Shown: piece after piece, positions 35,219-37,638 of the stretch | Layout of the letters: each line of letters opens with the position of its first letter | Position numbering within the stretch: position 1 is the first letter of the stretch | NCBI GenBank assembly: GCA_024305745.1 | Contig: JAHRBS010000009.1 | Location: 1,302,001 to 1,366,000 of the forward strand | Direction of reading: 5' to 3' | DNA length: 64,000 nucleotides | Source of the DNA: Polyporus tsugae | Lineage: Eukaryota > Basidiomycota > Agaricomycetes > Polyporales > Polyporaceae | The notes under the pieces: model-generated | Databases searched by the model: none | Told to the model about the DNA's origin: nothing | What the model saw: only the letters and a program-made list of their open reading frames with translations | Made by a program: the position numbers and the translations under genes

Positions 35219-35233
35219 GACGATGGTGCTTTG

Positions 35234-37036
35234 CATCCCTTCTCTCCCTCGTACCACCACCATCTGGTGGGCGCCTCCATCGTTTACGCTGCCCATACCC
35301 ACGTAGCGAGTACAGTACACCGGGGGTCCTACACCCCTTCCAATTCCTGGTCCCAGGGAGACCAAACATGCACCCAAGTACTACCCGGGCGGGGACCGGG
35401 GGGTCAAGCGGTGCGCACTACACGCGCAGCGCGCCCCCCTTGTACCTACCCCCCACACACATACCGGCCGACATGCCACTCGATGTGGCAATGTCGACCT
35501 TCACGCACTACCCCCTAGAGGGCGGACTGCCATATCGGCCCCGCTCTCGGGCACAAATCACGACGTTCGCGAAAATCGCGCTCGTCATCCCAGTCGACGA
35601 ATGGCACGAAATCCCCGCCCTTGGGGAACGTGTGTGCCAGGAGGTCGACGATACACAAGCGTTAATCGCACTCATCGATGTGATCATAAGCGAGGAGGGC
35701 ACGTTCGTTCCTGCGAGGAGCGCGTTCCATCTCCCCCCTTCACTCTTTGCCGAGGTCCCCGTCCTCATGGCAATTTATAACACACACACGGAAATGAGCA
35801 AGAATGTCCTGGTACACTTCCAGGGCGCTAGCGCTTATCTCCGATACATCTCCGAGCTTGAGGAGAACGGACACACACACGACCCGTGCGAAATACCCAA
35901 CGTAATCGCAGTCGGCGCTAGCCTGATCGCGGCCGGGTCGCTGTCCAAAACACACCCACAGGACGAAGTCTATCTCCCCGCTGATTCAAACTGGGCCATC
36001 TGGACCCCCTTTTGGGAGCGGTTCAGTACCGGCCACGCATACAGACGTATCCTGTTGATCGCCCAACGGAACACACGCCTCTTCGATGAGGTAGCGGCCG
36101 CTGATGGCAACGATCCCCGGAACGTCCCCAACAGCTGGCAACTGTGGCCGAGCGCCCACGCTGACCTCAGCCCGCCTCGCTGGCTCACGGAACACCGGCT
36201 TCGTGCCGCAGTTCCGCACGACCTTGATTCTGGACGCTACACGTACAGAATTGTCTCCTTCACAGACCCGTTCCACGGTGACTTTGTGGTTCGACAGTAC
36301 TATCACACACTCGCGCCTTGCACACGCAAAGGCCGAGTTCGTGCACACCGCCGCCGGCGCTGCGCCCCAGTTGCGCACCCGGAAGGCCCACCACCTGACT
36401 GCACGATCGGCTGCCAGCTCCCTGAGTGGCTGGTCGCGCTCGACCCTGATAAACCGCCGCCGTCGGCGGTGTTCCCCCACGTCCCTCCCTGCATGCTGCC
36501 GCCTGGCGCTGCGGCATGCAGCCCTCCCTCCGCAGACGTCACGCCCTGCATGCGTCCTCCATTGGATCGCAGCGCGTCGATCGTCGACACAAATCACACG
36601 GACACCACGCCCTGCACACTCCCACCGATGGAGCGCAGCGCGCTGATTGTCCATATCGACCAATACCTGCGCCCCCTCATGCAGGTGAACCATCGCACGC
36701 GCGGGTCCACAGTGGGTAGAACGAAGAGAAATCGTCCCCACCTGCAGATGCCTGCTATAGACGTAGCCCAGGCGGACGAGCTGGCGGGCCCCGCGTCTGA
36801 CGCGGAGGCTCCTCCTCCGGGAACACGATCGTCGGGCCGGCGGTAAGACGGAAAATTACCGACTGGCCCTCCCTACCACTCCTGGCCTTCGGCCATGGTC
36901 CTACCTGTGCACAAGCACATCGCGCCAACCGAACGTAGGATACCGGGAGACGCGCTGCCGTAGTTACATAAGCTCCTCATGTATTACAGTACTGCCGACA
37001 TCCTGAGATTATAAAAAAAAAAAAAAAAAAAAAAAA
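35234..37036 (+). mobile_element. Retroposed poly(A)-tailed unit with target-site duplications
   Basis: The unit ends in 24 uninterrupted A residues (37013-37036). It is bracketed by the direct repeat GACGATGGTGCTTTG at 35219-35233 and 37037-37051, with similarity continuing as CATCC on both sides after one extra G at the right. A 3' poly(A), variable-length target duplications and an intronless ORF are the marks of target-primed reverse transcription, as in LINE-mobilised mRNAs or LINEs themselves. The ORF inside lacks reverse-transcriptase motifs. So the unit is either a processed copy of a cellular mRNA or a non-autonomous element. The tail and duplications are nearly perfect, which suggests a young insertion. 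Confidence 0.82.
35368..36846 (+). CDS. Unknown intronless protein carried by the retroposed unit
   Basis: Not recognised. The ATG at 35368 (MHPSTTRAGTGGSSG) is the first in-frame one inside the retroposed unit and gives 492 residues. The same frame is open upstream to 35206, before the unit. The first 80 residues are Pro/Thr/Ser-rich. A globular-looking centre runs from about residue 80 to 330 (TTFAKIALVIPVDEWHEIPA, NVLVHFQGASAYLRYI, PADSNWAIWTPFWERF, RIVSFTDPFHGDFVV). A basic patch (GRVRAHRRRRCAPVAH) follows. The C-terminus is Pro/Cys-rich with degenerate repeats (TPCMRPPLDRSASIVD against TPCTLPPMERSALIVH) and a basic stretch. No reverse transcriptase, CCHC knuckle, integrase or kinase motif was seen. 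An uninterrupted frame this long suggests coding constraint or recent origin. Confidence 0.6.
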   Translation: MHPSTTRAGTGGSSGAHYTRSAPPLYLPPTHIPADMPLDVAMSTFTHYPLEGGLPYRPRSRAQITTFAKIALVIPVDEWHEIPALGERVCQEVDDTQALIALIDVIISEEGTFVPARSAFHLPPSLFAEVPVLMAIYNTHTEMSKNVLVHFQGASAYLRYISELEENGHTHDPCEIPNVIAVGASLIAAGSLSKTHPQDEVYLPADSNWAIWTPFWERFSTGHAYRRILLIAQRNTRLFDEVAAADGNDPRNVPNSWQLWPSAHADLSPPRWLTEHRLRAAVPHDLDSGRYTYRIVSFTDPFHGDFVVRQYYHTLAPCTRKGRVRAHRRRRCAPVAHPEGPPPDCTIGCQLPEWLVALDPDKPPPSAVFPHVPPCMLPPGAAACSPPSADVTPCMRPPLDRSASIVDTNHTDTTPCTLPPMERSALIVHIDQYLRPLMQVNHRTRGSTVGRTKRNRPHLQMPAIDVAQADELAGPASDAEAPPPGTRSSGRR

Positions 37037-37051
37037 GACGATGGTGCTTTG

Positions 37052-37638
37052 GCATCCGTGCACGTGGGCTAGGCCCGATCGGTGTGTCTTTCGGCGTGCT
37101 AGCGCTAGCTGCGTTGTTCTTCTCCAAGGCTCCACCAGTCGTGAATTATCGCGCGGATGGTACGTCCGACATATCGACCTTGCAATGGTTTCACGAATGG
37201 GATTAGGACATCTGCGAAGCCCTCGCGACTTCAAGAAGGTTAGGTTGTATGGCCGTAGTAGTGACAACGGCCCCGAAAGCATCTGCCAGACGATCTAGGT
37301 CGACGTCAGGCAATGCTTCGAGTCGCAGCATTGACTTGCGGTGGCATGACATCACGCACCACTGCGCTCGCACTGTCGGAGGGCTTGACAAGTGTTTGAA
37401 GTTGTTGCGCAATGCGCGTTGAACGTTAACGTTGAACCCCGGCAGAACCTGAATCAAGGACTACGATGTCACTTACCACAACTGTATACTCCAAGTTCAA
37501 TCGGCCCGACCCATTGCCCTCGAGTTCTACTCACGAGGAACTGTGCCATCCTATTATGTGCGTCTATCCTTAACATATCCGTCCCTAAGATCGTCAAAAT
37601 AGCCGCCACCGTAAGCTCCGTGCCGGCGTACCCCCAGC
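37052..37638. other. Intergenic, no gene seen
   Basis: Sequence following the right target-site duplication up to the 3' end of the GH16 gene. Open frames are short and unassigned. Confidence 0.5.

Follow-up and report, generated by a model that had tools for sequence, protein, structure and literature searches.

The unit at positions 35219-37051 of the window, the 64,000-nucleotide stretch of DNA analysed here, is probably a copy of a polyadenylated, non-autonomous coding retroelement that parasitises, or cooperates with, a 9-kb two-ORF LINE of the same genome; its ORF is selected and the encoded protein probably acts in cis. The family to which the unit belongs is most likely LINE-dependent, with a conserved orphan protein of its own. 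Including both target-site duplications (TSDs), the unit is about 1.8 kb long and is made up of the following parts:

35219..35233, no strand: 5′ target-site duplication GACGATGGTGCTTTG, 15 bp, first bases GA
35234..35264, + strand: 5′ head in common with the partner LINE, 27/31 bases against LINE copy L035 in a by-eye count
35234..35367, + strand: 5′ untranslated region of 134 nt, 88.6-98.5% identical to 17 other aligned copies
35368..36846, + strand: 492-codon ORF (ATG at 35368, stop ending at 36846) for a protein of unknown family
36872..37012, + strand: 3′ tail in common with the partner-LINE 3′ UTR, 81-87% identity over 165-178 aligned positions
37013..37036, + strand: A tail of 24 uninterrupted A, as read in the sequence
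37037..37051, no strand: 3′ target-site duplication GACGATGGTGCTTTG, a perfect 15-bp copy of the 5′ repeat

The tail alignments of the unit with the LINE extend into the A tail. An earlier note on this DNA had described a 15-bp direct repeat, a 24-A tail and an intronless frame of 492 codons, and all three are present at the positions listed; its end point for the unit, 37057, was set 6 bases too far, as the repeat stops at 37051.

A DNA search of the whole genome (43.2 Mb in 18 contigs) returned 42 matches to the unit, the long ones being 77-97% identical to the window copy. Both ends are present in 22 copies (the window copy, L009-L028 and L029), of which L014, L024, L028 and L029 are interrupted. 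Three further copies are partial: L030 (contig C14, 5′ end not seen), L031 (C16, 5′ part) and L039 (C11), an 88-bp 3′ piece, probably a 5′-truncated element copy, that has a 9-bp direct repeat. The remaining matches are mostly the 3′ tail alone or the 5′ head alone. Convincing TSDs of 11-18 bp flank 19 of the 22 both-ended copies, with one mismatch in 3 of those 19, and none was found at L011, L013 and L017. Because 22 copies have both ends and 19 of them have convincing TSDs, the window unit is real beyond chance. The whole reading frame is open in 10 of the 22. When the genome was searched with the protein (E ≤ 0.01, best candidates scored), all 31 matches lay within or overlapped element copies, and thus no intron-bearing parent gene was found among them. 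The earlier note had left two options and had proposed a genome search for further copies to separate them: a non-autonomous retroelement that has coding capacity of its own, which these many A-tailed, TSD-flanked copies now support, or a processed copy of a cellular gene, which the assignment of every protein match to a copy of the unit speaks against. No tRNA was found in the element, and it has no Rfam match at E ≤ 5.

The element has both of its ends in common with a LINE. Its 3′ end matches seven LINE loci (L032-L038) at the identity given above, the matched stretch consisting of the LINE 3′ UTR and the beginning of the A tail. Two of these LINE copies, L033 and L035, were followed to their 5′ ends; each is about 9.0 kb long, with the TSDs GAGGCCACCGATATC and GAGGGACTTGATCTG, respectively, and each starts with an element-like head directly after the TSD, with a few odd first bases in L033. 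These LINE heads were recognised by reading and were not listed by the genome DNA search. In the part of L032 that was read no head is present, and this copy may be 5′-truncated. A longer pattern derived from the element head has 24 matches in the genome (23 of them in copies of the element, the other at L041) against 0 for a reversed control; the LINE heads fail this longer pattern, as their spacing differs. ORF2 carries reverse transcriptase (RT) and RNase H in both LINE copies tested (L032 and L033), with RVT_1 at E 8.8e-22 and RNase_H at E 6.5e-9 in L033; a match to Exo_endo_phos_2 at E 9.6e-4 in L032 is below its cut-off, and none is listed in L033. ORF1 of L033 has no Pfam match, and a CCHC knuckle can be seen by eye in the LINE ORF1. 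The partner LINE may be of the Tad1 type (I superfamily). Tad1 non-LTR elements have been reported in Ganoderma (PMC8955403). RNAalifold, run on the shared tail, gave 30 pairs, only 1 of them with any two-sided change, and a covariation term of 0.1; by this analysis no covarying RNA structure is supported in the tail.

The head is also present elsewhere in the genome. It stands ahead of another LINE, L043, for which RT and endonuclease matches were obtained, and it is found at L041 and L042, so that, with the heads at L033, L035, L041, L042 and L043, the motif CCTCGTACCACCACCATC opens the element and at least two unlike LINE families. The motif is possibly a shared promoter or RNA signal. L042 (from oriented base ~894) and L043 (from ~1127) have a 5′ region of 1.15 kb in common at 98% identity and are diverged downstream of it, where tblastx pieces are mostly at 30-39%, as if 5′ regions had been exchanged between families.

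The element and the LINE also have a target preference in common. Read by eye, GA stands directly behind the A tail in 17 of the 22 element copies and 6 of the 7 LINE tails (absent in 5 and 1, respectively). On the minus strand of contig C2, at ~2604513-2619067, the loci L010, L037 and L013 lie in a row. Element L010 sits behind GACCCGGTAGAATGC; after its A tail come ACCCGGTAGAATGC and LINE sequence that begins inside ORF2. Further along, an interrupted LINE end, L037, closes with a separate A tail, after which come GACCCGGTAAAATGC, element L013 and the repeat CCTGGTAGAATGTC, which is decayed. The junctions read carry versions of one 15-bp target. L010 and L037 are separated by an unread 1.27 kb, and the LINE coordinates on its two sides agree with a single uninterrupted copy. 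Most simply, the row records three successive insertions, of an element, a LINE and an element, at one target. When the flanks of L010 were joined without the element, LINE copies were matched on the 3′ side only; L010 therefore stands at the 5′ end of a truncated LINE, and the joined flanks were rejected as a paralogous empty site for L010. The common target preference and the one re-used target lend indirect support to the idea that the element may move only with the LINE ORF2 protein.

Across diverged copies, the ORF is under purifying selection. We estimated dN/dS by NG86 for 13 pairs of copies. An 18-copy alignment left out L014, L024 and L028 (insertions), L029 and the three partial copies; L023, from which 91 codons were recovered, was left out of the dN/dS set and L022 was included, the frames of both being open. 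Over residues 1-330, dN/dS is 0.28-0.44 in all seven pairs with dS above 0.2, with bootstrap intervals that all lie below 0.6: 0.39 (0.29-0.53) for window-L018, 0.38 (0.28-0.50) for window-L026, 0.35 (0.26-0.50) for window-L027 and 0.28 (0.21-0.38) for L018-L027. The most constrained part is residues 251-330 (0.16-0.35 in the seven diverged pairs). Constraint is weak over residues 331-492 (0.45-0.65 in six of the diverged pairs, L012 being frameshifted); these residues are frameshifted in some copies, and the window-L018 interval of 0.40-1.08 for this part spans 1. Among the youngest pairs dN/dS is not below 1 in this way (0.82 for L018-L020, and 2.63 for L018-L021 from 1 synonymous and 8 non-synonymous changes), as expected if single copies are not under selection; selection is visible only over the long term.

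For six pairs compared on the DNA alignment, the sense frame gives 0.29-0.41 and the +1 and +2 frames 0.81-1.73; two of the reverse frames give 0.73-1.63, and the third gives 0.36-0.44 because its wobble positions coincide with those of the sense frame. This third reverse frame holds 9-17 stops per copy. Stops number 0-2 in the sense frame of the 18 aligned copies and 4-22 in each of the five other frames; the sense frame is stop-free in 11 of the 18, one of which, L012, has a 1-base deletion.

The protein resembles no family that we could name. The 492-residue sequence has no Pfam match at E ≤ 10 and the family profile matches no PDB sequence at E ≤ 10; together with the empty Rfam search, this agrees with the earlier note, which had placed the protein in no known family and had seen neither a reverse transcriptase nor a zinc knuckle in it (no Pfam match, and no CCHC by eye). 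The database relatives found are 481 and 382 aa long, both of them hypothetical proteins of Ganoderma leucocontextum; the same two were returned by a single sequence, by a nine-sequence alignment and by the core of L027, the copy that diverges most. The first two of these searches scored the best 7996 candidates by shared words, and candidates were limited to 0.55-1.75 times the query length, so that a relative inside a longer protein could escape. Between the element ORF and the partner-LINE ORFs, the best tblastn E value was 0.20, apart from the element copy inside L037, and hhalign against LINE ORF1, in a three-copy alignment that lacks part of the N-terminus, gave a probability of 0.2% (E 0.38). 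The ORF was accordingly rejected as a relic of partner-LINE ORF1 or ORF2, with no match by tblastn and none by profile to ORF1. Residues 331-492 are rich in Arg, His and Pro by eye, and an AlphaFold2 model from three sequences (mean pLDDT 31.7) is unusable for the fold. No sign of an effector was noticed in the element ORF.

In L012, L013 and L016, two-frame protein matches meet near residue 436, and these frame breaks fit the weak constraint on the C-terminal part. The C-terminus of one of the G. leucocontextum relatives, P0001, looks frame-shifted for a stretch when read by eye.

Divergence between copies is uneven along the element. The window copy and L018 have a synonymous divergence of 0.67 over residues 1-250 against 0.19 over residues 331-492, and their DNA identity is 90-93% in the untranslated ends against ~71% over residues 1-250. 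L017 (C2:683229-685043) is a recombinant copy: its first two thirds are L018-like, mostly at 89-97% per 120-nt block, and its last third is window-like, at 86-98%. This pattern probably arose by template switching or gene conversion between subfamilies.

Two readings would make the unit an ordinary by-product of retroposition. A lone unit with an A tail, a TSD and an uninterrupted ORF looks exactly like a processed retrogene or pseudogene of one cellular gene, but 22 copies have the same two ends, both common to the LINE, and their subfamilies have diverged under selection and recombined; a single retrogene was rejected on the number of both-ended copies and the absence of a parent among the protein matches, and we regard this origin as the least credible of those weighed here. 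Hardly more credible is a neutral ORF, that is, a frame that arose by chance or is a relic and has survived only because its copies are young. Stops are not to be expected in young copies (simulated neutral decay leaves a frame stop-free with P 0.60 at 1.5% divergence), and the high dN/dS of the youngest copies, near 1 or greater, would suit such a frame. The same simulation gives 0.032 at 10% and 0.0005 at 20%, yet the frames of L026 and L027 are open, and dN/dS is well below 1 between diverged copies.

The other two readings concern the source of the protein in a true element. The ORF might be the ORF1 of a LINE lineage that has been lost here, and the element that LINE minus its ORF2, with the ORF1 protein working in cis and using the ORF2 of a related LINE in trans, as in HAL1, whose layout of ORF1 only, poly(A) and TSDs (PMC5322556) is matched by the element. 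We consider this origin doubtful. From one lineage to another, ORF1 proteins are reported to be almost wholly dissimilar (PMC4641428), so the mismatch to the resident ORF1 weighs little against it, and the Arg/His-rich C-terminal third (by eye) would fit. However, no LINE with this ORF was found in the genome, all 31 protein matches lying within or overlapping 1.8-kb units; the protein has no CCHC knuckle by eye, no Pfam domain and no profile similarity to partner-LINE ORF1; and within the length limits of the search its only database relatives are the two G. leucocontextum proteins. A captured host gene, by which a cellular transcript gained LINE ends through template switching and became a mobile family whose protein is cargo or of help to the host, is unlikely. 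The absence of similarity to the LINE ORFs and the conserved core at residues 251-330 are in its favour, but neither the genome nor the protein-database searches returned a cellular relative, and repeated retroposition would not be expected to leave a cargo frame open.

For the preferred reading, a coding element dependent on the LINE, we infer LINE mobilisation, Pol II transcription, translation and a role of the protein as follows. A Pol II transcript would begin at the shared head, and its ORF would be translated. The LINE ORF2 protein would bind the shared 3′ tail and the poly(A) of the element mRNA, and a nick at a GA-type target would be followed by target-primed reverse transcription; because the 5′ head and 3′ UTR are shared, this protein could use the element mRNA as a template. 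Since selection keeps the element protein in a multi-copy parasite, it should favour the RNA that encodes it, and a role in a cis ribonucleoprotein (RNP) is our best guess: the protein would act mainly in cis, as an RNA-binding or RNP factor that replaces the LINE ORF1 protein or works beside it. More tentatively, the element may be a LINE satellite whose orphan protein replaces or outcompetes LINE ORF1 in RNA packaging and which evolves by exchanging segments between subfamilies. If this is true, a LINE satellite would be a third non-autonomous mode besides non-coding SINEs and ORF1-only half-LINEs.

Non-autonomous parasites of LINEs are usually seen either as non-coding, as in SINEs, or as deletion derivatives of LINEs in which ORF1 is kept. 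In the trypanosome pairs RIME/ingi and NARTc/L1Tc, the non-autonomous partner has both ends of the LINE and is a non-coding internal deletion of it; the element likewise has both ends in common with a LINE, but it is coding. The partner LINE is like Tad1-type LINEs in having an ORF1 (CCHC, by eye) and an ORF2 (RT and RNase H); the element has neither. Mammalian HAL1 is described as consisting of L1 ORF1 only and depending on full-length LINEs (PMC5322556). The element is like it in being poly(A)-tailed, TSD-flanked and probably LINE-dependent, with one ORF and without endonuclease or RT. The ORF of HAL1 is, however, L1 ORF1, whereas that of the element has no detectable similarity to partner ORF1. 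SINE/LINE pairs are reported to have 3′ tails in common (PMC3747384), and the 3′ end that the element has in common with its partner LINE is, as for SINEs with a LINE-derived tail, consistent with tail recognition. Unlike SINEs, the element is 1.8 kb long, has a selected long ORF and a LINE 5′ head as well, and matches no tRNA or Rfam family.

Among fungi, LINE-related sequences with their own coding capacity have been described in Blumeria, and in this the element resembles them: the EKA/AVRk1 genes go back to LINE ORF1 and have early stops (PMC4641428), and Eg-R1/ROPIP1 is described as encoding a 74-aa peptide, without a genomic poly(A) stretch (PMC6022598). In Marasmius oreades, a LINE family is reported to be active, with new insertions that lack protein domains (PMC9674265). 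Among the papers listed in searches of the fungal and Ganoderma literature for a non-autonomous coding LINE derivative, and judged by title and the opening of the abstract, none describes the element. If a coding parasite keeps, by purifying selection across diverged copies, a protein with no recognisable relation to its LINE, the benefit of that protein would have to arise at the level of the RNA, and cis-preference and the need for ORF1-like proteins would become testable in a fungus. The 'lineage-specific hypothetical proteins' of mushroom genomes can, moreover, be retroelement genes, as two G. leucocontextum entries match the family.

Other RT matches in the genome show regularities of their own. 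A 5768-aa open frame at the RT match on contig C6 was rejected, since it was not reproduced in 6 kb of sequence, where the longest of the three forward frames is 1250 aa. Three RT matches on contig C7, at 1399609, 1411271 and 1422933, have equal scores and a spacing of exactly 11,662 bp, and are probably a tandem array of a large repeat. Five more RT matches with equal scores lie at C1 4986388, C5 2110536, C7 3996650, C9 3270330 and C11 2443368, three of them ~30 kb or less from a contig end, which suggests duplicated blocks, perhaps subtelomeric.
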